Assembly (NCBI GenBank): GCA_028874985.1
Contig: JAPPGI010000148.1
Span: forward strand, 1 to 43,639
Direction of reading: 5' to 3'
DNA from: Gemmatimonadota bacterium
GTDB lineage: Bacteria; Gemmatimonadota; Gemmatimonadetes; Longimicrobiales; Gaopeijiaceae
DNA length: 43,639 nt
The notes beneath the pieces were generated by a model, which had not been told where the DNA came from, ran no database searches, and saw only the letters and a program-made list of their open reading frames with translations. Of this stretch, positions 18,333 through 40,870 are shown piece by piece. The first letter of the stretch is position 1, and the number at the start of each line of letters is the position of its first letter. Made by a program: the position numbers and the translations under genes.

Positions 18333-19106
18333 TCAAATCACTCCCAGCAGCTCCAGCGGCAGCCATCCCACCTTCCCGTCCGCCAGGACGACCTCGGCCC
18401 ACTCCCCGGTTCGCCGGTCGATGCGCACCTTGGTGCCTTTGTGCAGGGTGAAAAGGGTCAGTCCGGCGTCCTCGGAAGGGGCGTTCAGGACGCTGACCTC
18501 GACAGCCATGACGACCGCCTCTTCGGGTCTTCCCAGCCCCGTCTCGCGGATCAACAGGGTGGCGCCCAGGATGAGCGTGGCGACAGCGGCCGCATACGCA
18601 CATCGCCGCAGCGGCGCCCGCCACCCCACGGGCCGCCGAAGCACGATCAGGACCAAGGCCCCGCCGAGAATCAGGTAGCCGGCGGCGACCAGGACTTCCA
18701 GCACGCCCCGGGGGATGAGTCCCATCCACCAGTCGAAGGCCGACAGGAGCCAGAAGCGCGGCAGGGGCTCGATCCGGTCCCGGAGACGCTGGTTGACGAG
18801 GGAGAGGTTGGCGCGGATGTCATCGTTGCCCGGGTCCAGGCGGACGGCCCGCTCGTAGTTGAGGACGGCAGAGCCTATCTCCCCGAGGCGGAAGTGGGCG
18901 TTGCCCAGGTTGAAGTAGAGCGCGGCGGACTCGAACCCTCCTTCGAGAACGGAACCGTAGCTGGCGATGGCCCCCGCGAAGTCGCCCTCCTGATAGAGGC
19001 GGTTGCCCTCGGCGAAGAGGGCCTCCTTCGTGGCGTCGCGCCCCAGGAGGCCGCCGGGGAGGAGCGTCAGCGCAAGTGCGGTCAGGCCGATCCCGAGCCG
19101 TCTCAC
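18333..19106 (-). CDS. batE: BatE-like TPR and SH3-domain membrane protein
   Basis: Last gene of the Bat operon. The 257-residue product has a signal peptide, TPR repeats (about 30-110: LFAEGNRLYQEGDFAGAIASY, LYFNLGNAHFRLGEIGSAVLNYERAVRLDPGN split over three helices pairs), two transmembrane segments (about 135-157 and 168-186) and a C-terminal SH3-like domain (about 197-253, ending in GEWAEVVLADGKVGWLP). This layout is the usual BatE architecture. The start is GTG at 19106, overlapping the batD stop by four bases (GTGA), so translation is probably coupled. In Bat systems these TPR proteins are thought to work with the membrane VWA proteins BatA/BatB; the biochemical role is unsettled. Confidence 0.8.
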   Translation of the reverse strand: MRRLGIGLTALALTLLPGGLLGRDATKEALFAEGNRLYQEGDFAGAIASYGSVLEGGFESAALYFNLGNAHFRLGEIGSAVLNYERAVRLDPGNDDIRANLSLVNQRLRDRIEPLPRFWLLSAFDWWMGLIPRGVLEVLVAAGYLILGGALVLIVLRRPVGWRAPLRRCAYAAAVATLILGATLLIRETGLGRPEEAVVMAVEVSVLNAPSEDAGLTLFTLHKGTKVRIDRRTGEWAEVVLADGKVGWLPLELLGVI

Positions 19107-20989
19107 ACCGAGAGCTCCCTGGCGAGGTCGCCCATGAGCGCCGCGGCACGTTCCAGCACCTCCTCGGGCGGCTCGCGGCCGGGGCCCGCCGGAGAGAACC
19201 GCTGCAGGTCACAGTCGTCGAGGCAGGCGAAGAGGCGTTCCAGCGTTTCCCCGGACGCCCCCCTCCTGCGAGCCAGACGGTCCACCTCTTCGCGCAGGAG
19301 CCCGGCCTCGGCGATGTTCAGCTTGTCGGCCAGGAATCCCTGAAGCGCGCCTGCGACTTCGGCATGGAATTCCCGCGGATCGCCCCCGGCCAGTCCCCTG
19401 GCCCTCGCCAGCCGTTTCTTCGCCATCCTCCGGGCCCTGCGCACCCGCGCATACGCCACGTCCCCCTCGATCCGGTCGCGGTGGCGACGAACCGCCGCCG
19501 CCCCCGCCACGGCCGCCACCGGCAGCAGCAGGACGATCCAGAACCCGGCGGTCGAGTGAAGCGGCACTCCGACGGGCCTGAGTTGCGGCGGGCCGATGTG
19601 GATGAAGCGGATCTCCTCGCGGATGGGCTCGACCGCCGAGGGGACGGCGCCGTTCTCCCCGCCGGGTGCCGCCGCATCGCCCGTGACGGTGATCGCCACC
19701 GGCTCGGACCGCGCAATCCCGTAGGTGCGGGCCCGCGCGTCGAAGTACGCGACCTCGACCGGAGGGATGGTCGGGCTGCCGGGAGCACGCGGGATGAGCA
19801 CGTACTCGTAGCTGCGCGTCCCCCGGATGCTGCCGCCCCCGGGCGCGATGTTCTCGCTGGTCTCGGGCGGGAACACCTCGAACTCGCCGGGGAAGGCGAT
19901 CTCGGGGGCGGGGAGGGCGCGGAGATTGCCGGTGCCGGTCAGGTCCAGCCGGAAGGTGAGCGCCTCGTTGGCGGCCACGGAAGCGCGGTCGACCGTGGTG
20001 GAGAGATTCAGCTCGCCGACGTGTCCGGCGAACGACGCGGGACGGCCCTCGGCGGGCAGGGGCAGCACCTCTATGGCGACCGGGCGCGAAGCCACCGTTA
20101 CGGGAACCCGGCGGTCGAAGAGGCCCGAACCGCCGAAGAAGTCGCCGAAGGGGTCCCGCCGCCGCCTTTCGCGCACCCGCACCTGGGCCTCGATGCCGAG
20201 TGGCTCGACGGTGCGCTCGCCGCTTCCGGTCGGGAAGAGAGCCACGCGCCGTACGGCGGCCGTGACGTACTCGGTGCCGTCGCGCACCACGCGCTCCACC
20301 TCCGGTGCCTGGGACCGCTCAAGCTCCTCGGCCCAGAAGCCGGTGGTCCGCGGCAGCATGGATATGCTGTACGAGTCGACGTTCACCCGGGTGAAGATCC
20401 GGTACTCCACCACGACCGGCTCGTTCTCGAAGACGGTGGTGCGGCTGACCTTCGCCTCTATGAAGAGATCCTCCGGGGAGACTTCGTCGACCGGGTCTTC
20501 CGGCTCGGCGATTCCCCCCCGGGGCGCCGGCGTGTCGGACACGACCAGCGACACCGGCTCCGTCTCGTAGGTGTTCCCCCCGACGGTGACCTTCACGGGG
20601 CCGATTTCGAAGACCCCCTCCTCGATGGCCTGGAAGCGGTACTGGTAGGTGAGCGTCATGCTGGTCCGGCCGTTCGCGATCTGCACCGAGGTCGACGTCC
20701 CCGACCCGAGGTATTGGCCGAACTCCTCCATGTCGGGCAGGACAGGTTCAGCGTCGGCCTGCTGAGCCCCCGACACCTCGACGTTGAGCACGAACCGGCC
20801 ACCCCAGCCGACGTTCTCCGGGCTCAGGAAGGCGCTGACCCGGATGTCCTGGGCATGGGCGGGCGCGGGAAGGGCGAAGAGGAGGGTGGCGAGGATGGGG
20901 AGGGGTGGCCGGACCGGCCTGCGGGTGAACCGTGCCGAGCCGAAGAGCACGCGCGGACGCCGCGCCCGGGATCGGTATCCGGCCGACAC
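19103..20989 (-). CDS. batD: Canonical BatD, membrane-anchored
   Basis: BatD family (oxygen tolerance) protein of 628 residues. An N-terminal hydrophobic segment (about 30-47, ending APAHA-Q) exports three Ig-like domains: about 49-152 (VSAFLSPENVGWGGRFVLNVEV), 175-310 (VENEP-type, EAKVSRTTVFENEPVVVEYRI) and 311-436. The third opens with the family hallmark LPLPAEGRPASFAGHVG. A transmembrane helix (about 483-500) leads to a cytoplasmic helical domain (501-628). This is the only one of five BatD-type genes here with the membrane anchor and cytoplasmic tail. The start is GTG at 20989, three bases after the preceding stop; GAGAGG is unusually close to it, so a start further in (GTG, Val14) is possible. 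Confidence 0.85.
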   Translation of the reverse strand: MSAGYRSRARRPRVLFGSARFTRRPVRPPLPILATLLFALPAPAHAQDIRVSAFLSPENVGWGGRFVLNVEVSGAQQADAEPVLPDMEEFGQYLGSGTSTSVQIANGRTSMTLTYQYRFQAIEEGVFEIGPVKVTVGGNTYETEPVSLVVSDTPAPRGGIAEPEDPVDEVSPEDLFIEAKVSRTTVFENEPVVVEYRIFTRVNVDSYSISMLPRTTGFWAEELERSQAPEVERVVRDGTEYVTAAVRRVALFPTGSGERTVEPLGIEAQVRVRERRRRDPFGDFFGGSGLFDRRVPVTVASRPVAIEVLPLPAEGRPASFAGHVGELNLSTTVDRASVAANEALTFRLDLTGTGNLRALPAPEIAFPGEFEVFPPETSENIAPGGGSIRGTRSYEYVLIPRAPGSPTIPPVEVAYFDARARTYGIARSEPVAITVTGDAAAPGGENGAVPSAVEPIREEIRFIHIGPPQLRPVGVPLHSTAGFWIVLLLPVAAVAGAAAVRRHRDRIEGDVAYARVRRARRMAKKRLARARGLAGGDPREFHAEVAGALQGFLADKLNIAEAGLLREEVDRLARRRGASGETLERLFACLDDCDLQRFSPAGPGREPPEEVLERAAALMGDLARELSV

Positions 20990-20992
20990 CTC

Positions 20993-22822
20993 TCAGCGCC
21001 CCGCCCCCGCGGGAACCACCGTCACGGTGAAGGGGTGGCTTCGCGTCGTGCCGTAGGACTCGGTCTCGGGGTCGAAGAAGGACATCTCCACGGCTGGGAT
21101 CTCGTAGCGTCCCGGGGTGGCGGCGGTGAGGCGGTGGGTGTACGTGCGCGTTCCCTGCAACTTGTAGCGGCCATACCCGGCCAGGTCCGTTCGGATCTCG
21201 GGCGCGGACACGGTGAAACCGCTCGGGAAACCGATCTCGGGATCCGGGAGCCCTTCCACGTATCCCTCCACCTCCACCTTGACCTCCAACGTGACCGTCC
21301 CGCCCACCTCGACCCGGGTCCCGTTCATCCTGGATGCCGCCGCCAGCGTCCCCACGTGGCCACGGAAGGACGTGGGGCGGCCCTCGTCGGGCAGGGGGAG
21401 GACTTCCAGTGTGAGCGGGTTGGCGGTCAGGATGTAGGAGGTGGATTCGCGGCCGAAGTCGTCCGGGGAGGTCCGGGCCCATGCATCGCCAGGTTTGTCG
21501 ACTCGGACTTCCAGGCTGACCTCCCCCACCTCCAACCGGCCGGATCGTCGCGGCAGCAGCGCAAAGCGGTCCGCCCGGATGCGACCATGCATGAACGTGC
21601 CGTCGACTTCCTCCCTGGCGTACCCCGGTCGCTCCAACACGTCGAAGGCGTCGAGCGTAGGCCGCGACTTCGTCCCGATTCGCGGCGATAGGCCATGCCC
21701 GCCGCGCGCAACCAGATACGTCACGATGACGGGCTCGCCGACATAGGCGCGGGGTTTTGCGGCGACGGCCGTCAGGGAGAGGTGTCCGGGTGGGTCCCCG
21801 CCGGCCGGCACCTCGTCCACGGTGACGGCGACCGGGCTGGACTCGACGGTTCGGCCCTCGGCGACGATCCGCACCGGGCCGATCTCCAAGCGGCCCGGCC
21901 GGAGCGCGCGGAACCGGTAGCGGTACGTCATCCCGTCCCCGTTGGTACCCCCGTGCAACCATGGCTCCTCCGACCCCAGGAACTCCGCGAAGCCGCCCGT
22001 TTCCGGCGCCGTCGGCTCTTCGTCCAGTTCGAGCGTACCCGCGACCTCCACCCTGACAACGAACTCCCCCCCGACCCAGATCGACCCGGATTCGACGGTG
22101 GCCCTGACCTCCAGACGGGGAGGTTCGTCAGTGACCACCAGGGTGACCGCGTTGCTCTCATAGGTCGAATCCCGGTCGACGACCCCTACCGGCGCGATGA
22201 CGAACTCGCCCGGCGCCCGTGCACGAAGACTGCACCGAAACTCCCATCCCCTGCCGTAGCAGGACCCGGCCCCGTCGGCCACGTCAAAGATATCGGGCTC
22301 GATGAACTCGAGATTCTCCGATTCCAGGCCCGTGACCTCGGCGACCAACTCGAACTCGTCCCCCACCCTCACCCGGGACGGCTCGACCCGGGCCTCGACC
22401 CATACGCCGGAACGTCCCACCAGCACGGCCACCGCCTCGGTCTCCATCTCCCTGCCGTCGGCCGTGATCCGGAACGGTTTCATTTCGAAGAAACCCCTGC
22501 GGTCGGCCACGAACACGTAGGACAGGGTGACCGAGTTCGCGGCCACGCCCCCCTCCTCGTCGCCTACGCCGACCTCCACCGCCGGATCGTAGGGGTTCAC
22601 GCACCGCGCGAAGTCGAACAGTTCGGGGATGAGTACGCTCTCCACCTCCTTCGCCCCGCGCACCTCGACGACGAGCCTGAACTCCTCACCGACGGCCACC
22701 TCCGGCGGATCCGCGTAGGCTTCCACCCTGGGTTCCGGCATCTGCGCGGCCGCCGGCGACAGGACGATCGGGGACATGAGGACCGCCGTGAGCGCGCTCA
22801 GGGTCCCGTGTATGTTGTTCAT
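20993..22822 (-). CDS. BatD-like secreted protein, type A (copy 2)
   Basis: A 609-residue BatD relative without a C-terminal membrane segment. The signal peptide (MNNIHGTLSALTAVLMSPIV, cleavage near AAAQ, residue 27) is followed by five Ig-like domains. Three are of the first-domain type (starts EAYADPPEVAVGEEF, EARVEPSRVRVGDEF, RATVESGSIWVGGEF), one is of the second type (AYVGEPVIVTYLV), and a last one opens with LPLPDEGRPTSFRGHVG (near 490). It ends YGTTRSHPFTVTVVPAG, very like the type-A copy at 24690. Two cysteines in domain 2 (SCYGRGWEFRC) could form a disulfide. The ATG overlaps the previous stop (ATGA). It probably acts in the periplasm. Confidence 0.78.
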   Translation of the reverse strand: MNNIHGTLSALTAVLMSPIVLSPAAAQMPEPRVEAYADPPEVAVGEEFRLVVEVRGAKEVESVLIPELFDFARCVNPYDPAVEVGVGDEEGGVAANSVTLSYVFVADRRGFFEMKPFRITADGREMETEAVAVLVGRSGVWVEARVEPSRVRVGDEFELVAEVTGLESENLEFIEPDIFDVADGAGSCYGRGWEFRCSLRARAPGEFVIAPVGVVDRDSTYESNAVTLVVTDEPPRLEVRATVESGSIWVGGEFVVRVEVAGTLELDEEPTAPETGGFAEFLGSEEPWLHGGTNGDGMTYRYRFRALRPGRLEIGPVRIVAEGRTVESSPVAVTVDEVPAGGDPPGHLSLTAVAAKPRAYVGEPVIVTYLVARGGHGLSPRIGTKSRPTLDAFDVLERPGYAREEVDGTFMHGRIRADRFALLPRRSGRLEVGEVSLEVRVDKPGDAWARTSPDDFGRESTSYILTANPLTLEVLPLPDEGRPTSFRGHVGTLAAASRMNGTRVEVGGTVTLEVKVEVEGYVEGLPDPEIGFPSGFTVSAPEIRTDLAGYGRYKLQGTRTYTHRLTAATPGRYEIPAVEMSFFDPETESYGTTRSHPFTVTVVPAGAGR

Positions 22823-24690
22823 TTACCCTGCTCCTCCGCGGCGGGGGTTACTGTAAGATCAAAGGGCCCGGCCCGGGAGATCCCGTACGACTCCGATTCG
22901 GGATCGAACCAGGACACCTCGATGGCGGGGATACGGAAGCTTCCCTCGCGGCCCGCGACCAGCAGGTAGGTGTCGGCGCGCGTTCCACGCGGACCGGTGC
23001 GGTCGTCACGGGCGTCAAAGCGAACGGTCTCGGGTTCGGAAACGTCGAAGCCCGCTGGAAACGCGATCTCGGGATCGGGCATGACGCTGCTGTGACCGGG
23101 CCCCGAAAGCTCGACCTGCAACGTGACCGTGTCCCCCGGTGCCGCGTTCGTGCGATCCACCCAGCAGACCAGCTCGAGGCTCCCCACATGTCCCCGGAAC
23201 GACTCGGGGCGGCCCACTTCGGGAAGGGGCACAACTTCGATGGAAACGTCGTCGGTGGTGAGGGTGAGGGGCGTCCAGTTCCCCCCGAACCGCGCACTCC
23301 GCTCTACGGGCGTCAACCCGAAGTCCGCCGCGTCCCGCCGACGTACCTGTCCCTTGAGTGCAGCCGGTCCGATCTTCTTCCTGCCGGGCTCGCGAGGGTA
23401 GACGGCCAGGCGGTGCTCCGCGCCGGGAGAATACTCGCGGCCATCCAGCGAAACACGGTCGTCAAGACCAAACCGCCCGTAGACGGGCCCGAGCCGGTGA
23501 ACCTCCAAACCCTCCTGCGGGGGCAACGCCAGCGAGTCGTATTCCCACCACCAGCTCCCCTCGCCGAACCACCGAGGGCTTCTCGACAGGGTCCGATAGG
23601 ATATGACCACCGGTTCCCCGACGTAGACCCGGTGCTTGTCGGCCTCGGTCGTGACCCGCAGATCCTCCGCAGACACCGGGGGCTCGAGGGGGGCCTCGCC
23701 GATCGCGAGATGCAGCGGCTCGGTCAGGATCGCCTGGCCGCCCGCCCTGATGCGGACCGGACCGATCTCATGCTCGCCCGCCGTCAACGCCCGGAACCGG
23801 TATTCGCCACTTCTGTAGTACTCGCCCCCGAATCCCCTTCCCCAGCCACTATCGATCAGCCTCGCGAAGCCGGACATCTCCGGCAGCACCGGTTCCTCAT
23901 CCACTCCGGGAACGCCTTCCACTTCCACCACCAGAACGAAGTCCCCTCCCACCCAGGCCTGCTCTGTGTTGAGCGCCGCATGGGCTTCGACGACGGGCGG
24001 CTCGTCGCTCACCACGAGCGTCAGCGGCTCGCTCTCGTAACTCCCGCTCCCCACCTTGACCGACACGGGCCCGATCTCATGCGTACCGGGCTTCAGGGCC
24101 ACATAGTTCAACCTGGCCTCGCCCAGCCCACGACCGCTGCCGCTCCTCCTGGCGAAGTCGGAAATGTCGCGAAGCACCGGCCCCTCCAGCAGGCGTTCCA
24201 CGCCCTGGAAATGGACGTGCACCTCGAACCTCTCCATCACCCTCACCTCCGCGGGCTCGATCCACGCCTCGACCGTCACCGTCTCGGGATCCTTCACGAG
24301 CAGCGTCAACAGTTCCGTCTCGAGATCGCGGCCGTCGGCCGTCACCAGGATGGGGCCGATCTCGCCCCGCCCCGCCGCCCTGGCCACGAACGAGAAGGTG
24401 AAGATCACCGACCCCCCCGTCTGTCCCGGCTCGGGGGTCGTGATCTCGGTGCTGAAGGGAAGCAGTCCGTCCCGCGGGAGGCCGGACACCGCGAAGAGGG
24501 GGGGAATGAACACGTCGTCGATCTCCCTGACCCCCGTGACCTCGACGATCACCCGGAAACGGTCCCCGACCTCGACCTCGGCGGATTCCAGGTAGGCTCG
24601 CACGGAGGGTTCCTGGGCGGACAACGCGCTGGTCCCGAGCATGGCGATCAGGGTGAACGCGAACACCCGCGCCAGGAGTCCCCGAACCAC
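22819..24690 (-). CDS. BatD-like secreted protein, type B (copy 3)
   Basis: A 623-residue BatD relative, signal peptide plus five Ig-like domains, no C-terminal membrane helix. Three N-terminal domains open with RAYLESAEVEVGDRF, EAWIEPAEVRVMERF and HAALNTEQAWVGGDF. A fourth contains VYVGEPVVISYRTL, and the fifth opens with VPLPEVGRPESFRGHVG (near 497). The C-terminal domain ends EVSWFDPESESYGISRAG and closely resembles the type-B copy at 26542, not its immediate neighbours. The start is GTG at 24690, which shares one base with the upstream TAG stop (TAGTG). Likely periplasmic; the role is inferred only from operon membership. Confidence 0.78.
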   Translation of the reverse strand: MVRGLLARVFAFTLIAMLGTSALSAQEPSVRAYLESAEVEVGDRFRVIVEVTGVREIDDVFIPPLFAVSGLPRDGLLPFSTEITTPEPGQTGGSVIFTFSFVARAAGRGEIGPILVTADGRDLETELLTLLVKDPETVTVEAWIEPAEVRVMERFEVHVHFQGVERLLEGPVLRDISDFARRSGSGRGLGEARLNYVALKPGTHEIGPVSVKVGSGSYESEPLTLVVSDEPPVVEAHAALNTEQAWVGGDFVLVVEVEGVPGVDEEPVLPEMSGFARLIDSGWGRGFGGEYYRSGEYRFRALTAGEHEIGPVRIRAGGQAILTEPLHLAIGEAPLEPPVSAEDLRVTTEADKHRVYVGEPVVISYRTLSRSPRWFGEGSWWWEYDSLALPPQEGLEVHRLGPVYGRFGLDDRVSLDGREYSPGAEHRLAVYPREPGRKKIGPAALKGQVRRRDAADFGLTPVERSARFGGNWTPLTLTTDDVSIEVVPLPEVGRPESFRGHVGSLELVCWVDRTNAAPGDTVTLQVELSGPGHSSVMPDPEIAFPAGFDVSEPETVRFDARDDRTGPRGTRADTYLLVAGREGSFRIPAIEVSWFDPESESYGISRAGPFDLTVTPAAEEQGK

Positions 24691-26537
24691 TACCGCCCCC
24701 CCGCCCCCACCGGAACCACCGTCACGGTAAGGGGATGGCTGCGGGTCGTGCCGTAGGATTCGGTCCCGGGGTCGAAGAAGGACATCTCCACGGCGGGGAT
24801 CTCGTGTTCCCCCGGCGCTACGGCCGTCAGGTGGTAGGTGTACGTGCGGGTCCCTCCCAGTTGCTCCCCGCGGTACGAAGTCCTATCCCGGACTTCGCCC
24901 GCTGAGACCGCGAACGCGTCCGGAAACTCGATTTCGGGATCCGGCAGCTCCTCCACAAGTCCCTCCACCGACACTTCGAACCGCACGGTCACCGTCTCAC
25001 CCACCTCGGCACGGGTCCGGTCCACCCACGTCACGGCCTCCAGCGTGCCCACATGGCCCCTGAACGACGCGGGACGGCCCTCTTCCGGCAGCGGCAGCAC
25101 CTGCAGCGCATGCGGGTTGGAGGTGAGGATCATCGAGGTCTCCTCCCGCCCGTGGGCCAAGGACCCCCAAAGCCGAGCCTCCACGGTGGCGGTACCCAAC
25201 TCCAATCGGCCCGACTTCCGCGCCCGGAGCGCGACCCGGCGCAGTCTCTCCCTCTCGTATCGCCGGCCGTCCACGACCATCTCCCGCCCATACCACCCCC
25301 AACCGACCTCATGCACGTCGAAGTCCTCGAACGCGGGCCAGGACTTTGCGCCGACCCTCGGCCCCATGGACCTGCCGTCGTAGCCGATGGCATGCTCCAC
25401 CACCACGGGCTCGCCGACGTAGGCGCGCGTCCTGCCGGGAAGGACGCGGAAGACGATATCGTCCCCGGGTTCGGTGTCTCCCGTCGGCACCTCATCCACG
25501 ACCACGGAGATCCGCTGGCTCAGGTACGTCCGGCCGTTGCCCACGATCCGCATCGGCTCGATTTCGAATTCGCCGGCCCGGAGGGCACGGAAACCGTAGA
25601 CTCGCCGCACTTGCCCTGCGCGGATGTCATGGGAGAACTCGTCGACTTCGAGAAGCTCCGCAAAGGCGTCGGCCCGGGGAACTGCGGGCTCCTCGTCCAG
25701 TTCGCTGACACCCGTGACTTCCAGCTTGAAGTCGAACTCGCCCCCTACCCAGATCGACCGGGCCTCCAGGGTGGCCTCCACCTCCACGCGGGGCGGCTCG
25801 ATGACGAGCGCCACCGGTTCACTCTCGTAGGTGAGGTCCCCGGCCACGACCCTGAGCGGCGGCACCACGAACTCGCCCGCATCGGCCGCCTCCAGTATCC
25901 AGGTCGCGCTGGTTTCCGTCTGCATCCCGCTGCGGTAGATGCTCCAGGACAGGTCGAACACGTCGGGCGTGATGAACTCGTGGGTCCAGGCCCGCGAGCC
26001 GAAGATCTCGGCGGTCAGCGTGAAGTCGTCCCCAACGTGGATCCGGGAGGGCTCGACGCGGGTCTTGACAACCGGCTCGGAAAGCGGATGGCGGTTGACC
26101 AGGACCGCCACCGACCCGGTTTCCAGACTCCGGCCGTCGGCGATGATCCGGAACGGGCCCACTTCGAACAACCCGGGTTCCCGGGCCACCAACGCGTAGG
26201 CGAGCGTGAAGGAGTTCGCAGACTCCGGGCCCGCTCCGTCCGCAACCTTGACCGCGAGGGAGGGCCTGGGAGAGTCGAAGCGCTCCGCGAAGTCGAAGCG
26301 CTCCGGGGCGGTCACACGCTCGAGCGTCCGCGCCCCATTCACCTTGACCAGCAGCCGGAACTGCTCGCCCACGGCCACTTCGGGTGGGTCCGCGTACGCC
26401 TCGACGGAGGGCTCCTGTCCCCGCGCGGCGCCGACCGCCACGAGAAGGGAAGGGAACGAGGCCGCCAGCACCGCGCGGATCCGCCCCGGTCCCTTCGGAT
26501 ACATCCGGATTCCCGACACCACTCCGGGTCCGTTCAT
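24690..26537 (-). CDS. BatD-like secreted protein, type A' (copy 4)
   Basis: A 615-residue BatD relative: signal peptide (cleavage near GAARG-Q), three first-type domains (EAYADPPEVAVGEQF, TRVEPSRIHVGDDF, EATLEARSIWVGGEF), one second-type domain (AYVGEPVVVEHAI) and a final domain opening with LPLPEEGRPASFRGHVG (near 490). It ends YGTTRSHPLTVTVVPVG with no membrane anchor. It is clearly the sister of the type-A copy at 20993; the last 95 or so bases of the two genes are about 85-90% identical by eye. The start MNGPGVVSGIRMYP is chosen for its strong AGGAGG site, formed by the terminal glycine codons of the gene upstream, whose stop lies four bases before the ATG. Confidence 0.78.
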   Translation of the reverse strand: MNGPGVVSGIRMYPKGPGRIRAVLAASFPSLLVAVGAARGQEPSVEAYADPPEVAVGEQFRLLVKVNGARTLERVTAPERFDFAERFDSPRPSLAVKVADGAGPESANSFTLAYALVAREPGLFEVGPFRIIADGRSLETGSVAVLVNRHPLSEPVVKTRVEPSRIHVGDDFTLTAEIFGSRAWTHEFITPDVFDLSWSIYRSGMQTETSATWILEAADAGEFVVPPLRVVAGDLTYESEPVALVIEPPRVEVEATLEARSIWVGGEFDFKLEVTGVSELDEEPAVPRADAFAELLEVDEFSHDIRAGQVRRVYGFRALRAGEFEIEPMRIVGNGRTYLSQRISVVVDEVPTGDTEPGDDIVFRVLPGRTRAYVGEPVVVEHAIGYDGRSMGPRVGAKSWPAFEDFDVHEVGWGWYGREMVVDGRRYERERLRRVALRARKSGRLELGTATVEARLWGSLAHGREETSMILTSNPHALQVLPLPEEGRPASFRGHVGTLEAVTWVDRTRAEVGETVTVRFEVSVEGLVEELPDPEIEFPDAFAVSAGEVRDRTSYRGEQLGGTRTYTYHLTAVAPGEHEIPAVEMSFFDPGTESYGTTRSHPLTVTVVPVGAGGR

Positions 26538-26541
26538 TCTC

Positions 26542-28446
26542 TCAACCTCCTCCTTCCCGCGGCCCACCGGCGACGGTGATATCGAACGGTTCGGAGCCGG
26601 CAGTCCCGTACGACTCCTTTTCGGGATCGAACCAGGAGACTTCAACCGCGGGGATCCGGAATCCGCCCTCCTGCCGCGCGACCAGGCGGTAGCTGTAGAA
26701 GTGCGTCAGCGCAAATCCCTCGCCGACCGCCGGGGCATCGGGAACCACCTCCGGTTCAATGACTTCGAACCCGGTCGGGAACCGGATCTCCGGATCGGGC
26801 GGGACCACATCCTCGCCGACGCTCGAAATCTCGACACGCACGGTCAGCGTGTCGCCGGTTTGCATGTGGGTCCGGTCCACCCGGGACACCACTGCGAGCC
26901 TTCCCACATGCCCCCGGAATGACGCGGGGCGGCCTTCGGCGGGCAGCGGCACGACCTCGATCGGGATCGGGTCGGTCGTGAGGGTCACCGGAGTCCAGGT
27001 TCCCTGACGCTCGGCCCGGTTCGTTTCCCAGCCGTAGTCGCTCTCGCGGCGTTGGTTGACCTGCAACATGAGTTCGGCAGGCCTGATCGCCGTCTCGCCG
27101 GCCTCGACGGGAGAGAACATCACGTGGTGCTCCGAGGCGACGCGGTACAGGCGACCTTCCAGGGAGACCCGTTCCCGCCAGCGTCCCCGTGACCGGATCC
27201 TCCGGTGTTGGAAGTCGTCGTGCGCGGGCAGGACAAGGGTGTCGTCCTCCTCGACCTCCCACCCTTCGAAGCCCGAACGATTGTCCCTGGCAAGCACGCG
27301 ATAGGTGACGATCACCGGCTCGCCCACGTAAACCCTGCGCTGCTCGGCCGTGGCCGTGGCCCGCAGGTCCTTCGGGGACTCGACGGGCGCGGGCGGCGGG
27401 GCCTCGCCGACCACCAGCTTCAGGGGCTCGGTCAGAGCCGTCCGGCCGCCGGCCGTCACCTGTACGGGCCCGATCTCGTATTCGCCCGCGGATACGACGC
27501 GGATCCGGTAGTCGCGGTGTACCGTGTAGCGATCACCACCTGACGAGCCCCTCCCGCCACCCCTGGCACGCGGAGGTTCGGCGAAGGCGGACATGTCGGG
27601 AAGCACGGGATCGGCATCCAGTTCCATCGCCTCGGCTTCGACCACCAGCACGACATCGCTTCCCACCCACGTCTGCCCGGTGTTGAGGAACGCCCGCGCT
27701 TCGATGGCCGGGGGGTCGCCGACCACCACCAGCGTGACCGGCTCGGTCCTGATGACATCGTCTCCCACCTTGAACACGACCGGACCGACTTCGTGGGTGC
27801 CCGGCGCCGTGGCCACAAAGCCGAACGACATCGATCCGTCCACGCCCTCTCTCGACCCCGTGGCGGCAAAGCCCCAGGTGTCCGGTGGAAGATCCGGCCA
27901 TGGCGCGATGTGTGCGGGTGTCACGTCGACAACCAGTTTGAACTCGTCCCCCACCCGCACCTCGGTGCGGTCGAGCCGGGCCCGAACCGAAACGGCGCCG
28001 GGATCCGGAAGCGTCGCGACCAGCGTGACCGCTTCGCTCTCCAGCCTTCGGCCATCGGCAGTCACCCCGAAGGGACCAAGTACGAACGATCCCGCCCTCC
28101 AGGCCACGGAGGAACAGGAGAACACGACCGATCCCGAGGCCTCCCCGGCCGGCGGAGCCCTGATCTCCGTGGCGAAGGGCAACGTGCGGTCCGGACGAGG
28201 GGGAGAGGCGTAGCGGCACGGGAAGAAGCGCCACCGGTGTACCAGTGCCTCCACCTCGCCGGCCCCGGCAATCTCGACGACCAGCCGAAACGAGTCGCCG
28301 ACTTCGACCTCGGCGGGCTCCAGGTAGGCCCGGACCGTGGGTTCCTGTGCCGCCAGCCGACCGGTCGCAAGCAGTACGATCGCCCCCGTGGCAAGCAGCG
28401 GCACACCTGCCGTCCGCACCCTCATCCTCCGTGTCATCTCACTCAT
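26542..28446 (-). CDS. BatD-like secreted protein, type B' (copy 5)
   Basis: A 634-residue BatD relative and the first of the extra copies in transcription order. After the signal peptide (PLLATGAIVLLATGRLAAQ) come three first-type domains (RAYLEPAEVEVGDSF, RARLDRTEVRVGDEF, RAFLNTGQTWVGSDV), a second-type domain (VYVGEPVIVTYRVL) and a last domain opening with VPLPAEGRPASFRGHVG (near 510). No C-terminal membrane helix. Its ends match the type-B copy at 22819 (EVSWFDPEKESYGTAG). Domain 1 has two cysteines (FFPCRY and VVFSCSS) not found in its sister. The ATG at 28446 follows the batC stop after one base, with AGGAAGG upstream; the frame is open a further 25 codons inside batC. Confidence 0.78.
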   Translation of the reverse strand: MSEMTRRMRVRTAGVPLLATGAIVLLATGRLAAQEPTVRAYLEPAEVEVGDSFRLVVEIAGAGEVEALVHRWRFFPCRYASPPRPDRTLPFATEIRAPPAGEASGSVVFSCSSVAWRAGSFVLGPFGVTADGRRLESEAVTLVATLPDPGAVSVRARLDRTEVRVGDEFKLVVDVTPAHIAPWPDLPPDTWGFAATGSREGVDGSMSFGFVATAPGTHEVGPVVFKVGDDVIRTEPVTLVVVGDPPAIEARAFLNTGQTWVGSDVVLVVEAEAMELDADPVLPDMSAFAEPPRARGGGRGSSGGDRYTVHRDYRIRVVSAGEYEIGPVQVTAGGRTALTEPLKLVVGEAPPPAPVESPKDLRATATAEQRRVYVGEPVIVTYRVLARDNRSGFEGWEVEEDDTLVLPAHDDFQHRRIRSRGRWRERVSLEGRLYRVASEHHVMFSPVEAGETAIRPAELMLQVNQRRESDYGWETNRAERQGTWTPVTLTTDPIPIEVVPLPAEGRPASFRGHVGRLAVVSRVDRTHMQTGDTLTVRVEISSVGEDVVPPDPEIRFPTGFEVIEPEVVPDAPAVGEGFALTHFYSYRLVARQEGGFRIPAVEVSWFDPEKESYGTAGSEPFDITVAGGPREGGG

Positions 28447-28447
28447 T

Positions 28448-29374
28448 CTACCAGTCCTTCCTGGGCCTCCGACCCCGTGGCTGGGCGGCCTTCCTGTCGA
28501 CTTCCCCCAGGTCCTCGGCAACCGCCTGCAACAGGCGCTCCGCCTGCTCCGGAGTCATCTGCGGGGACTGCTCGCCCGCCTGTCCCTCCCGCTCCCGTTC
28601 TTCATTCGACTGCGGAGACCCGTCATCGCGTTGGCCCGCCTGAGGCTGCGACCGCTGCTCTTCGTCACCCTGGTCCTCCCCTTCGGAAGCATCACGCTGA
28701 TCCTGCTCCTCCCGCCCGTCCTGCGACTGCTCCCCCTGCTGCTGGTCCTGGTTCTGATCGTCTCCGCCCTGCTGCTGCTGTTCCTGCTGCTGGAGCATCC
28801 GGAGCGCCATCTCCAGGTTGTGCTTCGCGTCCTGGTCCGCCGGGTCCAGCCTGAGCGCCTGCTTGTACGCCTCGAGCGCCGGCCCCGGCTGCTGCTGCCT
28901 CAGCATCGCGTTGCCCAGGTTGTACCACGCGTCCGACCGCCACCCGGGATCGCCGTCTTCCAGCGCTTCCAGGTACGCCTCCATGGCGCGCTGGAACTCC
29001 CGGCTCTGGTAGAGCGCGTTGCCCTCGTTGAAGCGCGCCAGCGCCAGCCCCGGCACCTTCTCGAGCGCTTCCAGGTAGCGGGCATGCGCCTCCTGGAAAC
29101 GTCCTTCCTCGTAGAGCCGGTTCCCATCCTCGATCTCGCGGCGGCCGTCCTGGGCTGCAAGCGGCGCGGCAAGCATGCCGAAGGCCCCGGCGAGCACGAA
29201 CACCAGCCTCCCCGCCCCGCCCCGCGGCACGACCCCACGCCCACGCCGCGGGCCCGTTTCGGCCCGAACACGGCGATCACTCCCGCCGGACGGCGCCTTC
29301 CCACGCCCAACCCGCGCCCCGACCCGGGTGCGCGCGCGGCAGGCACCCCCCCCGGAAACTGCAGAATGCTTCAT
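28448..29374 (-). CDS. batC: BatC-like TPR protein with Gln/acidic low-complexity region
   Basis: A 308-residue protein. A hydrophobic signal-like segment (56-74, APLAAQ) is followed by TPR repeats (about 82-190: DGNRLYEEGRFQEAHARY, ARFNEGNALYQSREFQRA, AWYNLGNAMLRQQQPGPAL). Then come a Gln/Asp/Glu-rich disordered stretch (about 195-268) and a conserved end (MTPEQAERLLQAVAEDLG ... RGRRPRKDW), the usual BatC tail. The ATG at 29374 overlaps the batB stop (ATGA), but it gives an unusually long 55-residue n-region. A GTG at 29230 would give an ordinary signal peptide, so the start is uncertain. In Bat systems BatC is a soluble or exported TPR partner of BatA/BatB/BatE. Confidence 0.8.
   Translation of the reverse strand: MKHSAVSGGGACRARTRVGARVGRGKAPSGGSDRRVRAETGPRRGRGVVPRGGAGRLVFVLAGAFGMLAAPLAAQDGRREIEDGNRLYEEGRFQEAHARYLEALEKVPGLALARFNEGNALYQSREFQRAMEAYLEALEDGDPGWRSDAWYNLGNAMLRQQQPGPALEAYKQALRLDPADQDAKHNLEMALRMLQQQEQQQQGGDDQNQDQQQGEQSQDGREEQDQRDASEGEDQGDEEQRSQPQAGQRDDGSPQSNEEREREGQAGEQSPQMTPEQAERLLQAVAEDLGEVDRKAAQPRGRRPRKDW
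28735..28792. repeat. Imperfect CTG trinucleotide repeat inside batC
   Basis: About 58 bases of broken CTG triplets (CAG, glutamine, on the coding strand) encode the LQQQEQQQQ to QQQ part of the low-complexity region. Such a tract can change length by slippage in multiples of three without shifting the frame. Confidence 0.5.
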
Positions 29375-30396
29375 GCGACCTCCTCCGTCCGGACAGCCGG
29401 ACGTCTCTTCCGCCCTGGAATGATGAACTCCAGAGCCAGAAGGAGCAACGCCACCCCCAGGAAAACCTGGTACTGCTCCTCGTATTGCGTCACCTCCCTT
29501 GACTCCACCTCGCGGCCACCACCCCCGATCCGCTCCACCAGCCGTCCCAGCCCCCCCGCCCCCCGTCCGATGCGGTGATACTCCCCGCCGGTCTGCAGCG
29601 CGATGTCCTGCAGCGCCGTCTCGTTGAGGCGCGTGGTGATCACGTTGCCGGCATCGTCGCGCCGGAACCTGCTCCCCCCGCTCCCCCCCACATCCGGCAG
29701 CGGCACGCCCTCCAGCGAACCCACGCCCACCGTGTGGATCGTCACCCCGGCCTCGCCGGCCGCCACCAGCGCCTCGGCCACGCCCCCTTCGTGATCCTCC
29801 CCGTCCGTCACCACAACCACGATGCGGTTCTCGGGCGGCGTTTCCGCGAGCGCCTCGATGCTCACCGCGATCGCCCTGGCCAGATCGGTGCCCTGTGTCG
29901 ACATCATCTCGGGGTCCATCGCGCTCAGGAAAATCATGGCCGCGCCGTAGTCCCCGGTGAGGGGGCTCTGCACGAAGGCGTCGCCCGCGAAGGCCACCAG
30001 GCCGATACGGTCGCCATCGAGCCGCTGGATGATCCGGCCGACCTCGATCTTCGCGCGTTCGAGCCGGTTGGGCGCGATGTCCTCGGCGTACATGGAGCGG
30101 GAGACATCGAGCGCGACGACCACGTCCTGTCCCTGGCGCCGCACCGTCTCGACGCGGGTGCCGAACTGCGGCCGCGCCAGGGCGAAGGCCAGCAGGGCGA
30201 CCGCCATGAACAGGAGCGAGGCCTTCCAGCGCCGGGCGGCGATGCTGACGGCGGGGCGGAGCCTGCGCACGAGGTGGTGCTCGCCGAACCGGTCGAGGAG
30301 CGCGCGGCGGCGGCGGCTCGCGTACCAGTACAGCCCGAAGAGCAGAGGAACCAGAGCCAGGCTCCAGAGCGCGAGGCCGTCACCGAGGCGGAACAT
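29371..30396 (-). CDS. batB: BatB-like VWA membrane protein
   Basis: Aerotolerance-type von Willebrand factor A protein, 341 residues. There are two N-terminal membrane segments (about 8-25 and 59-76, ending FALARPQFG, a Bat hallmark), a VWA domain with the metal-ion site motif DVSRS (97-101), the MIDAS threonine near QGTDLARAI, VVVVTDGEDHEGG, and a C-terminal membrane helix (YQVFLGVALLLLALEFIIP). It lacks the RFGNRRYVTT-type insert of BatA and sits in the BatB position. Its partner BatA is 60 bases upstream. Its MIDAS suggests metal-dependent binding, with the MoxR ATPase as possible remodeller. Confidence 0.85.
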   Translation of the reverse strand: MFRLGDGLALWSLALVPLLFGLYWYASRRRRALLDRFGEHHLVRRLRPAVSIAARRWKASLLFMAVALLAFALARPQFGTRVETVRRQGQDVVVALDVSRSMYAEDIAPNRLERAKIEVGRIIQRLDGDRIGLVAFAGDAFVQSPLTGDYGAAMIFLSAMDPEMMSTQGTDLARAIAVSIEALAETPPENRIVVVVTDGEDHEGGVAEALVAAGEAGVTIHTVGVGSLEGVPLPDVGGSGGSRFRRDDAGNVITTRLNETALQDIALQTGGEYHRIGRGAGGLGRLVERIGGGGREVESREVTQYEEQYQVFLGVALLLLALEFIIPGRKRRPAVRTEEVA

Positions 30397-30456: not shown

Positions 30457-31449
30457 TTACGGCAGCGTCCTCAGCCAGGTGCGCCCGAGCACGAGTTCGG
30501 CCAGGAGCAGCACGAGACCGGCCACCAGCGGCAGATGGAACCGTTCACCGTAGTGCGTGAAGTTCTCGACCTGGATCTCGGTGGTCTCGAGCTCGTCGAT
30601 CTCGCGGTATATCGCCTCCAGGCTCTCCCGGTCGGTGGCGCGGTAGTAGCGGCCCCCGGTGGTCTCCGCGACGGCGCGCAGCGTGGGTTCGTCGACGTCG
30701 ACGCGGGTGGTCACGTAGCGGCGGTTGCCGAAGCGGTCGGGCACCGGGACACGGGCCGTGCCGTGCGACCCGGCTCCGATGGTGTACACGCGCACCCCGA
30801 GCGCCTCCGCCGCCTGCGCCGCCGTGACCGGATCGATTTCGCCCCGGTTGTTGCGTCCGTCGGTGAGCAGAACGACCACCTTCGAGGCCGCTTCGCTCGC
30901 CTGCAGCCGCTTCACGGCGGTGGCCAGTCCCATCCCCACCGCCGTCCCATCCTCGATCATGCCCACCTCCAGTTCGCCGATCAGCGAGATGACCACGGAG
31001 TAGTCGAGGGTGAGCGGCGCCTGCGTGAAAGCCTTCCCGGCGAAGATCACCAGCCCGATCCGGTCATTGCGCCGTCCGGCGGCGAATTCGGCCGCCACCG
31101 CCTTCGCGGCCTCGATCCGGTTCGGGGCCAGGTCCTCGGCCAGCATCGAGCTGGAGATGTCCAGCGCCAGCACGATGTCGATGCCCTCGGTGACCACGTT
31201 CTCGCCCGTCACGCCCGTCTGCGGCCGCGCGAACGCCACGACGAGACAGAGCAGCGCCAGCCCGCGGAGCACGGCGGGCACATGTTGCATCCACCGCCCC
31301 TCGCCCCCGCCCGCCCGGACCAGCCCCGCCACATCCGGATGCCTCAGCGATTCCCGGCGCCCGCGGCCTCGAACCGCATACCACCACCCCAGTACCGGAA
31401 CGGCTCCGAGCAGGAGCAGGAGGTGCGGGTCCTCGAAGCGGAAGATCAC
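30457..31449 (-). CDS. batA: BatA-like VWA membrane protein
   Basis: First of the two VWA proteins, 330 residues. N-terminal segments are hydrophobic (8-24 and 60-75, ending VAFARPQTG). The VWA domain (about 88-290) has an intact metal site: DISSS (97-101), the threonine in DGTAVGMGL, and LLTDGRNNRGE. A C-terminal membrane helix (LPLVAGLVLLLAELVLG) completes the BatA layout. The start is GTG at 31449, overlapping the preceding stop by four bases (GTGA), a sign of coupled translation. BatA and BatB are expected to form a membrane complex with the VWA domains on the extracytoplasmic or cytoplasmic face depending on helix count; sequence alone does not settle this. Confidence 0.87.
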   Translation of the reverse strand: MIFRFEDPHLLLLLGAVPVLGWWYAVRGRGRRESLRHPDVAGLVRAGGGEGRWMQHVPAVLRGLALLCLVVAFARPQTGVTGENVVTEGIDIVLALDISSSMLAEDLAPNRIEAAKAVAAEFAAGRRNDRIGLVIFAGKAFTQAPLTLDYSVVISLIGELEVGMIEDGTAVGMGLATAVKRLQASEAASKVVVLLTDGRNNRGEIDPVTAAQAAEALGVRVYTIGAGSHGTARVPVPDRFGNRRYVTTRVDVDEPTLRAVAETTGGRYYRATDRESLEAIYREIDELETTEIQVENFTHYGERFHLPLVAGLVLLLAELVLGRTWLRTLP

Positions 31450-32408
31450 GGGGCGGATCCGCTCGTCGTCCGGACCAGCTCCCGGGCCCTGTCCATGAGC
31501 GCCCGCGACTCGTCCGGCACCGGCCGCAGCTTCGCGAACTTTACCAGGTCGCAGCGCTCCAGGAAGTCCTGGAATCCGCCCGTGAGGTGCCGGCCGAGAG
31601 CCGCCCGCCGCATGCCGTCAACCACCTCGTGCGTGGCGAGCTCGAGCGCGGGCACCTCGAACTGCCCCTCGATGTACCTGCGGATGATCTCCGAGATCCG
31701 CACATGGTATTCCTTGACCTGGCCGCGCTCGAGAAGCGCCGACTTTTCGAGCAGGCGCAGGGCCTCCAGCGCCAGTTCGTGGAAGGGGCGGGGCGGGGCA
31801 CGGGGGACGAGTGGGCCGGACTCGGGTGCCTCCCGGCGCCGGCGGTACAGGTAGTAGGCGACGCCTCCGGCCACCGCGGCGGCGAGCACCGCCCACATGA
31901 GCACGCCCCACCAGCTCCGCGGAATCGACAGCGGACCCTTGATGTCGCGGAGGTCCCCCGATTCGTCGAGTCCGACGGTCTCCACGCCCACGCGAAAGGG
32001 GTCGGTGCGGAGTGTGTCGACGGTGCCGTCTGGAGCGGTCACCGGAACGGCGATCGGGGGAATCTCCGGTTCGCCGAGTTCGAAACTGGTGATCACCAGG
32101 GTCGCCGCGGAGAGGAACCCGCCGCCGTCCGCAACCGCCACCGGAACGGCCCGGTCGGCGCGCAGCACCTCGAAAGGGGCGACGGCGAAGGAGTCGGGCC
32201 ATTCCACCACCCAGCCCGCGGGGTGATTCATCGACAGCCGCACGGTAACCGGGTCACCCACATGGATGACGGCGGTGTCCACCTCCATCGAAATCCGCAC
32301 GTCCTGAGCGGAGGCGGATCGGCTGGCCGCGAGCGGCCCGAACAGTCCCACCGCCAGCGCCGCCACCCAACCGCAGCCCGCGGCCCGACCGTCGTTTATC
32401 ACACTCAC
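31446..32408 (-). CDS. Single-pass membrane protein of the Bat operon, unknown function (DUF4381-like position)
   Basis: A 320-residue protein: signal peptide (about 13-35, SASAQ), an extracytoplasmic beta-rich domain (about 36-150, with TAVIHVGDPVTVRLSM resembling the opening strand of BatD Ig domains), a transmembrane helix (about 166-188), an Arg-rich stop-transfer (YRRRRE) and a cytoplasmic helical domain. It looks like a one-domain mini-BatD, and its place between the DUF58 gene and batA is where DUF4381-type proteins sit in other Bat operons. The start is GTG at 32408, overlapping the DUF58 stop (GTGA). The frame is open far upstream, but that part is an antisense-like Gly/Arg-rich artefact within the DUF58 gene. 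Confidence 0.7.
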   Translation of the reverse strand: MSVINDGRAAGCGWVAALAVGLFGPLAASRSASAQDVRISMEVDTAVIHVGDPVTVRLSMNHPAGWVVEWPDSFAVAPFEVLRADRAVPVAVADGGGFLSAATLVITSFELGEPEIPPIAVPVTAPDGTVDTLRTDPFRVGVETVGLDESGDLRDIKGPLSIPRSWWGVLMWAVLAAAVAGGVAYYLYRRRREAPESGPLVPRAPPRPFHELALEALRLLEKSALLERGQVKEYHVRISEIIRRYIEGQFEVPALELATHEVVDGMRRAALGRHLTGGFQDFLERCDLVKFAKLRPVPDESRALMDRARELVRTTSGSAP

Positions 32409-33283
32409 CGCACCCTCCGCGCCCGCTCCTCGAAGAAGCGCCTCAACGCCCGATCGTACGGCACCCCGGTCGTGACCTCGATCCTGTCGATCCGGCTCCG
32501 GCGAAACACCTCGTCCACCCTCGCCCGCGCCCCCTCGCGAATCTCCCGAAACCGCTCCCGAAACGCCCTCCCCGACGTATTGACCACCACCCGCTCGCCG
32601 CTCTCCGGGTCCTCGAACTCGACGAAACCCATCGGCGGCACGTCCTCCTCCCGCCGGTCCCCCACCCGTACGGCCACCAGGTCGTGCCGCCGGGCCGCCA
32701 CCGACAGCGCCCGCCCGTACCCGGCGGCCATGAAGTCCGACACCAGGAAAACCACCGCCCGCCGCCGCGCCACCCTGGCCAGGTACTCCAGCGCCCCCGC
32801 GATGTCCGTACCCGTCCCCTCGGCCGGGTGGTACAGAAGCTCGCGCAGCACCCGGAGCGCGTGGCGCCGTCCCTTGCGCGGCGGCACGAACTTCTCGATC
32901 CGGTCCGAAAACAGGATCAAGCCCACCTTGTCGTTGTTCTTGATCGCGCTGAACGCGAGGACCCCACACAACTCCGCCGCCAGCTCCGACTTCATCCTTC
33001 CCCGCGTCCCGAACTCCGACGACGCGCTCACGTCCACCACCAGCATCAGCGTCAGCTCGCGCTCCTCCTCGAAGATCTTCACGTGCGGCGAGCCCGTGCG
33101 CGCGGTGACGTTCCAGTCGATCCCGCGGATGTCGTCTCCGTACTGGTATTCCCGCACCTCGGCGAAGCTCATCCCCCGCCCCTTGAAGACGGAGTTGTAC
33201 TCGCCGGAGAAGACCTCGTTCACCAGGCCGCGAGTTGTGATCTCGATCCAGCGGACCTGCTTGAGGATCTCACTGGGAATCAT
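32405..33283 (-). CDS. DUF58 (VWA-like) protein
   Basis: Cytoplasmic VWA-like protein of 292 residues almost always paired with MoxR ATPases. The DUF58 core appears as EVREYQYGDDIRGIDWNVT (about 43-61) and KIFEEERELTLMLVVD. The metal-site motif is DVSASS (84-89). The rest of the domain includes DKVGLILFSDRIEKFVPP and VVFLVSDF. The ATG at 33283 is 19 bases after the MoxR stop. By analogy with other MoxR-DUF58 pairs it is thought to help assemble or metallate a client complex; the client here may be the BatA/BatB machinery encoded downstream. Confidence 0.88.
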   Translation of the reverse strand: MIPSEILKQVRWIEITTRGLVNEVFSGEYNSVFKGRGMSFAEVREYQYGDDIRGIDWNVTARTGSPHVKIFEEERELTLMLVVDVSASSEFGTRGRMKSELAAELCGVLAFSAIKNNDKVGLILFSDRIEKFVPPRKGRRHALRVLRELLYHPAEGTGTDIAGALEYLARVARRRAVVFLVSDFMAAGYGRALSVAARRHDLVAVRVGDRREEDVPPMGFVEFEDPESGERVVVNTSGRAFRERFREIREGARARVDEVFRRSRIDRIEVTTGVPYDRALRRFFEERARRVR

Positions 33284-33302: not shown

Positions 33303-34292
33303 CTACGGTACCTCGATCGTGTCCAGCACCCGCGTCACCACATCCTCCGTGGTCATCTCCTCCGCCTCGGCCTCGTAGGTGAGGATGACGCGGTGCCGCA
33401 GCACGTCCATCGCCACCGAGCGCACGTCCTCGGGCGTCACGTAGCCCCGGTGGCGCAGGAAGGCGTGGGCGCGCGCGGTCCTGGCCAGACAGATCGTCGC
33501 GCGCGGCGACCCCCCGAAGGAGATGAGCGGCTCGAGCTCCTCCAGACCGCACTCCTTCGGCTCGCGCGTGGCGAAGACCAGGTCGACGATGTAGCGCTCG
33601 ACCTTGCCGTCCATGTAGATCGTCTCGACGGCCTCGCGCGCCGCCAGGATCTCGTCCGGCGTCACCACCGGCTCGGCCTTCGGCTCCGGCCCCGCGCTCA
33701 TCCGCCTCATAATCTCCATCTCCTCGTCGCGGTCCGGATACCCCACCGACAGCTTCAGCATGAACCGGTCCACCTGCGCTTCGGGAAGCGGATAGGTTCC
33801 CTCCTGCTCGATCGGGTTCTGGGTGGCCAGCACCAGGAAGGGCGACGGCAGCGGGAAGGTGTTGTCGCCGATCGTGACCGTGCGTTCCTGCATGGCCTCG
33901 AGAAGCGCCGACTGCACCTTGGCGGGCGACCGGTTGATCTCGTCGGCCAGGATCACGTTCGCGAAGATGGGCCCCTTGCGGGTCTCGAACGCGGTCTTGC
34001 GGGGATCGTAGATGAGCGTGCCGACCAGGTCCGCCGGAAGCAGGTCCGGGGTGAACTGGATGCGTTGGAACGAGGTCCTGATCGCGTCGGCCAGGGTCCG
34101 CACGGTGAGCGTCTTGGCGAGCCCCGGGACCCCTTCCATGAGGACGTGCCCGTCGGAGAGGAGCCCGATCAGGAGCTGCTTGACCATGGCCTTCTGGCCC
34201 ACGATCACGCGGCCCACCTCGTCGAGGAGACGGTCCACGAAGCCGCTGGTCTCGCGGATCCTCGCCTGTATGACTTCGATGTCTCGGTTCAT
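33303..34292 (-). CDS. MoxR-family AAA+ ATPase
   Basis: Chaperone-like AAA+ ATPase, 329 residues, first gene of the Bat operon. Motifs seen: Walker A GVPGLAKT (54-61), the MoxR segment FQRIQFTPDLLPADLVGT, Walker B with sensor context ILADEINRSPAKVQSALLEAMQE split across two helices, LATQNPIEQEGTYPLPEAQ and the arginine-bearing DRFMLK. MoxR proteins act with VWA partners such as the DUF58 and BatA/B products encoded next. The start MNRDIEVIQARIRETSG is typical; upstream codons in the same frame are Arg-rich noise. About 60 bases upstream a TATCAT-like box (34351-34356 on the opposite strand) could be the operon's -10 element, but its -35 partner is poor. Confidence 0.92.
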   Translation of the reverse strand: MNRDIEVIQARIRETSGFVDRLLDEVGRVIVGQKAMVKQLLIGLLSDGHVLMEGVPGLAKTLTVRTLADAIRTSFQRIQFTPDLLPADLVGTLIYDPRKTAFETRKGPIFANVILADEINRSPAKVQSALLEAMQERTVTIGDNTFPLPSPFLVLATQNPIEQEGTYPLPEAQVDRFMLKLSVGYPDRDEEMEIMRRMSAGPEPKAEPVVTPDEILAAREAVETIYMDGKVERYIVDLVFATREPKECGLEELEPLISFGGSPRATICLARTARAHAFLRHRGYVTPEDVRSVAMDVLRHRVILTYEAEAEEMTTEDVVTRVLDTIEVP

Positions 34293-34498
34293 GCCACCAT
34301 GTGTCTGGGGGTTCCTCGAGGCGCATTCTTTCAAGCGCCAGCCAACTCTAATGATAACGAGCCCTGCGAAACGGTTGCCGGTTCCCTCGTGCAGGCGGAG
34401 GCCGGCGGAAATCCCTTTCGCCCGGCCGGCCGTCCGAGGCCGCCGGGGCCGGACCGTCTGTGCGGCGGCGGGACAGTCCCCGGCAGCGAGTCGTACGG

Positions 34499-40738: not shown

Positions 40739-40870
40739 GCTCGCGTTCCCCTTTCGTTTGACTTGAGTCGTGCGGATGGCTTCCCTCATCCCCGTCCCGT
40801 GCCCGACGAGCAGCGGGGCGGAAAGGTTCCGGGCTCGGGAGCCACGCAGAATCGCGATGCGCTGATCGGT

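Follow-up and report, generated by a model that had tools for sequence, protein, structure and literature searches.

A pair of BatD-like genes copied and lost as one within a single Gemmatimonadota genus suggests partner proteins

The Bat operon and related MoxR-VWA systems

The proteins of the Bat (Bacteroides aerotolerance) operon have been proposed to act as a membrane-associated complex, the biochemical role of which is unsettled (PMC3557215). Two types of BatD-like proteins, hereafter A and B, are encoded in a Bat operon of a Gemmatimonadota bacterium. They share with BatD of the Bat operon (PF13584) the BatD domain matches, the export signal, and the place beside batC and batD in an operon of MoxR-DUF58-VWA-VWA-TPR type, but differ from it in having five domains, of which three instead of one are N-terminal BatD-like domains, and in lacking the C-terminal transmembrane (TM) helix and tail. 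In addition, A and B are two distinct types that are always paired and vary in copy number. The NorQ-NorD (PMC9976466) and RavA-ViaA (PMC3893208) systems have in common with this locus a MoxR AAA+ ATPase and VWA proteins with an intact metal site (MIDAS) in one operon, whereas the VWA proteins here are anchored in the membrane, and DUF58, BatC, BatD, BatE, and A/B are encoded in addition. The MoxR-vWA ternary conflict systems also combine MoxR and VWA proteins with variable further components, yet what defines them is a VMAP, iSTAND, FtsH, or beta-propeller partner, and their description does not include BatD or DUF58 (PMC7159879). No VMAP, iSTAND, FtsH, or beta-propeller match was found among the operon proteins scanned, the anti-phage models of PADLOC gave no match for the proteins tested, and the bpMoxR match of the MoxR ATPase (44 bits) is far under its AAA_3 match.

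The window, that is, the whole stretch of 43,639 nucleotides analysed here, is contig C54 of a draft genome of 230 contigs (G000, the window genome) and carries a complete Bat operon on its minus strand, on which all the genes below lie. The operon starts with a MoxR AAA+ ATPase gene (33303..34326; Pfam AAA_3, 1.1e-64, and AAA_lid_2), the frame of which is open to 34700, 34326 being a provisional 5' limit. It is followed by the genes of a DUF58 protein (32405..33283; Pfam profile match), a DUF4381-like membrane protein (31446..32240; 21.1 bits, under the Pfam cut-off of 27.2), a BatA-like VWA protein (30457..31449; MIDAS DISSS), and another VWA protein of BatB/BatA-like type (29371..30396; MIDAS DVSRS) with the VWA domain flanked by TM helices; the MIDAS motifs are intact in both. 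A BatC-like TPR protein (28448..29374; Pfam TPR) marks the upstream border of an array of four BatD-like genes, behind which canonical BatD (19103..20989) and, as the downstream end of the operon, a BatE-like TPR-SH3 protein (18333..19106) are encoded. Canonical BatD comprises a signal segment, three Ig-like domains, a TM helix, and a C-terminal tail that weakly matches DUF4381. No further BatD-domain matches were found in the rest of the window genome. The C-terminal half of BatC is rich in Q, E, and D and of low complexity, and this half is apparently longer in the genomes G011, G020, and G004. At 39899-40789 the window encodes a protein that looks secreted and contains repeated VEVDDGSGSLTV-like segments; judged by eye, it is perhaps a beta-helix of DUF4097 type.

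Alternation and predicted architecture of A and B

In the order of transcription, the four genes between batC and canonical batD are B' (26542..28446) and A' (24690..26537), which make up unit 1, followed by B (22819..24690) and A (20993..22822) of unit 2, giving a B-A-B-A arrangement. A', B, and A were assigned by open reading frame, identity, Pfam BatD match, and tree, and B' by its open reading frame, its PF13584 match, and its grouping with the B proteins of G012 and G021. The adopted start of A' is the ATG at 26537, and a TTG at 26645 is a possible alternative. Stop and start codons overlap or nearly abut at the junctions within the array; the start codon of A overlaps the stop of B (taATGa), and the GTG start of B overlaps the stop codon of A' (taGTG). 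Protein identity over the full length is 53.8% for A/A' and 48.1% for B/B', against 34.5-39.4% for all four A-B combinations, and each of the four shares 34-39% with canonical BatD. The two types thus truly alternate, and they do so along the whole of their sequences. A sequence-only reading of this DNA had described four extra BatD-like genes of two alternating types, with neighbours less alike than every second gene and with shared starts and ends; the reading frames, the full-length identities, and the shared starts and ends all agree with that description. A likeness confined to the 3' end is ruled out, since the A/A' signal spans the full length.

Each of the four proteins is predicted to consist of an N-terminal signal segment and five Ig-like domains (D1 to D5), most of which are recognised as BatD domains (PF13584 scores of 129, 93, 132, and 103 bits for the four, with a cut-off of 24.1). 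This is two more N-terminal Ig-like domains than in canonical BatD: D1, D2, and D3 resemble its domain 1, and D4 and D5 its domains 2 and 3. The same-numbered domain is the best B match for D2 (41%), D3 (46%), and D5 (46%) of A and nearly so for D1 (38%), so the five-domain form is probably older than the A/B split. The only hydrophobic segment in each of the four is the predicted export signal at the N-terminus, and 23 of the 24 A/B proteins of the genus have none beyond it. Both types end after D5, without the C-terminal tail and the TM anchor of canonical BatD (one segment, about residues 473-491). Judged by this architecture, A and B are BatD-ectodomain paralogues and not full BatD proteins, and their derivation from a BatD ectodomain that has additional N-terminal Ig-like domains and no C-terminal membrane anchor is strongly supported. 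In G006, the first B gene (L039:7995-9660) is an open frame that lacks most of D2.

AlphaFold2 predicted strings of beta-sandwich domains for B (mean pLDDT 84, pTM 0.61) and A (mean pLDDT 80.7, pTM 0.56), and these pTM values led us not to trust the arrangement between domains. Comparison of the models with Foldseek and VIA-align gave generic Ig-array matches only (best Z 8-10), human receptor ectodomains scoring as high as PrgB, antigen I/II, and invasin (Z 8-10), and a sequence search for solved homologues gave none that was credible (best E 0.55).

Duplication and loss of the B-A pair

The distribution of the pair was surveyed in 23 genomes of the genus, 121 genomes in a family search, and a phylum sample of 395 genomes, nearly all of which are draft metagenome bins; named records include the Gemmatimonadota MAGs SB0661_bin_2 and RHO1_bin_56 and the Longimicrobiales chromosome OX639991. 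Going by the record names, the genus might be marine and in part associated with sponges, like those described in PMC10469786, in which these bins are not named. Among the matches listed from the family and the phylum, five-domain matches occur only in this genus, and the others start near D3 or later, with the exception of a weak stray D1 match in G026. Loci of Acidobacteria, Bacteroidales, and WOR-3 in a genome-contig scan hold one ordinary BatD apiece. Within the genus, 8 of the 23 genomes carry 12 cassettes: three in G006, two each in the window genome and G007, and one each in G011, G012, G019, G021, and G022. The cassettes of G006 lie on two contigs, with the break apparently inside one A gene. 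All 12 run B then A, the array stands between batC and batD on every contig that covers the site, and no lone A or lone B was found among the 23 genomes. G019 holds two batC junctions, one that lacks a cassette and bears an A 3' scar (L045, contig C336) and one reading batC-B-A (L015, contig C377), which may reflect contamination, mixed strains, or a second locus.

Phylogenetic analysis placed the A proteins in one clade (support 100/100) and the B proteins in another (100/99), and three unit lineages recur in both: X (G007 unit 2, G019, and G022), Y (G006 unit 3, window unit 2, G007 unit 1, and G011), and Z (window unit 1, G012, and G021). The two trees largely mirror each other. Their distance matrices correlate with r = 0.86, a value that none of 20000 relabelings reached and to which genome kinship contributes; with relabeling confined within genomes, the true pairing took second place among 24, as the trees do not separate units 1 and 2 of G006. 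Forcing the window's A and A' to be sisters cost 139 log units in the AU test (p-AU 7e-76), and forcing B and B' cost 129 (p-AU 5e-6). The rejection of both sisterhoods indicates that the pair was duplicated before much of the genus had diverged and before the species groups sharing lineage Y split. Adjacent genes as sisters were likewise rejected, A'/B' by the AU test (363 log units, p-AU 3e-5) and A/B by the separate A and B clades. The duplication of the window's pair is ancient, with the unit beside batC (Z) and the unit beside batD (Y) representing two old lineages. The duplication of a two-gene unit, as the sequence-only reading had proposed, is strongly supported by the separate clades, the same three unit lineages in each, and the presence of whole B-A pairs only.

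The 3' ends of A (20993..21142) and A' (24690..24839) have a history of their own. They had been taken as 85-90% identical over roughly 95 bases and as a trace of the pair duplication; the likeness was confirmed, with 89.9% DNA identity over the last 33 codons and 84.7% over the last 50, but it is not representative of the genes, the remainder being 60.3% identical, and it arose separately from the duplication. Identical 4-fold sites number 22 of 29 in the last 50 codons against 84 of 164 elsewhere (Fisher p 0.011), and the A' end is also marked by family D3 (84%). A tree from the last 165 bases joins the window's A and A' (support 76) and does not follow the unit lineages, whereas the A tree without the last 60 residues retains them. 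The same pattern occurs in G006, where A2 and A3 are 91% identical at the 3' end and 58.5% elsewhere. Later homogenisation of the A 3' ends by local gene conversion or recombination best explains these data.

Whole pairs have also been deleted. G020 differs from its near relative G011, the adjoining blocks being 90% and 97% identical, by a single 3.8-kb gap that corresponds to the B-A pair kept in G011; the missing stretch begins about 25 codons inside B, of which a 5' remnant is left, and ends in the spacer that precedes batD. A 3' scars stand before batD in six genomes (G001, G002, G013, G015, G016, and, on contig C336, G019), while G008 keeps a 51-codon relic and G004 a short, weaker match to the B 5' end. 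The shortest scars (G002, G013, and G015) are about 12 codons long and individually weak, but they stand where a scar is expected, directly in front of batD. Mapped on the operon tree, the scars occupy at least three separate positions (G020; G004; and a ten-genome clade containing G008 and G001), which implies repeated loss of whole cassettes. The position of G012 in this tree was ignored, as this genome is misplaced owing to a contig without batD, for which an A gene was used instead. The dN/dS values of A and B (0.24-0.31; BatD 0.18-0.25) indicate that both are under purifying selection. It is strongly supported that, once A and B had diverged, duplication and deletion acted on the B-A pair as a unit, in a birth-and-death process that kept order and place. 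An AT-rich element (ACATGACATTT.GTAA.GTTTAC.TTAC) was noticed before batD in G011, G020, and G004, and the operons of G020 and G004 contain it again farther upstream, the one of G020 between its two VWA genes (all sites: L043:11308; L056:8817 and 6655; L124, two places on the minus strand). It is possibly an internal promoter, an operator, or a small mobile element.

A proposed partnership and its alternatives

We favour, with a probability of roughly 0.6, the reading that the operon holds two copies of a B-then-A cassette and that A and B are obligate periplasmic partners extending the Bat complex. Both proteins would be exported as soluble beads-on-a-string proteins of the periplasm and would form an obligate pair, either as a heterodimer or as an alternating chain. 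This pair may extend or decorate the BatD part of a membrane complex that would be served by the MoxR ATPase and by the VWA proteins with their membrane anchors. In the VWA proteins, the region separating the first two hydrophobic stretches is arginine-rich, as is, in VWA2, the region following the last stretch; under the positive-inside rule, the VWA domain would accordingly lie in the periplasm. ICAMs are bound by integrin I domains through their MIDAS, and the MIDAS of the VWA proteins could by analogy bind Ig-like domains, those of A and B perhaps included. Extra cassettes would then be alternative partner sets. Since most genomes of the genus have none at the Bat locus, the cassette is not needed for core Bat function. 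A more tentative extension holds that the obligate heteromeric pairs are swappable periplasmic Bat modules whose specificity diverges from unit to unit, with several orthogonal pairs per cell.

The occurrence of 12 cassettes as 12 pairs and the whole-pair losses make it more likely that A and B work as partners, but they might also arise if the pair were a mere recombination unit, A-A or B-B crossovers changing the copy number by whole B-A units. Alternation would then be silent on function, because recombination in a tandem array always shifts whole units; the homogenised A 3' ends of the window genome and G006 show that A-A recombination occurs, and at 34-39% protein identity A and B are too unlike for easy A-B recombination. 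This explanation is nevertheless rather unlikely. Five of the eight carriers, two of them on broken contigs, have a single pair that array recombination does not protect, yet none is A-only or B-only, which makes this explanation less likely. Furthermore, the G020 deletion removed both genes, its junction connecting the beginning of B with the spacer that follows A rather than one A copy with another, and both A and B are under purifying selection.

Less probable still, A and B could be independent fast-evolving exported binding proteins, facing for example a host animal or phages, that use the Bat operon merely for expression. The fold likeness to the adhesin Ig arrays of PrgB, antigen I/II, and invasin, the variation in presence, and dN/dS values above those of BatD are consistent with such a role; on the other hand, the fold scores are typical of Ig-like chains in general, a second membrane segment and a PADLOC match are lacking, dN/dS is well below 1, and the place in the operon is invariant. 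That one B-A pair was recently duplicated in tandem within the window genome, as the similar A/A' 3' ends would suggest, is highly improbable given whole-gene identities of just 48-54% and window units closer to those of other species, and is ruled out by the AU tests.

Close relatives with and without cassettes in this genus offer natural present/absent comparisons for the widespread Bat operon, and the locus is a clear case of a two-gene unit that stayed together while it was duplicated, diverged to about 50% identity, and was deleted. The paired gain and loss of two soluble BatD-derived proteins points to a specific A-B interaction, and a pair copied and lost as one within a single Gemmatimonadota genus suggests that A and B are partner proteins.
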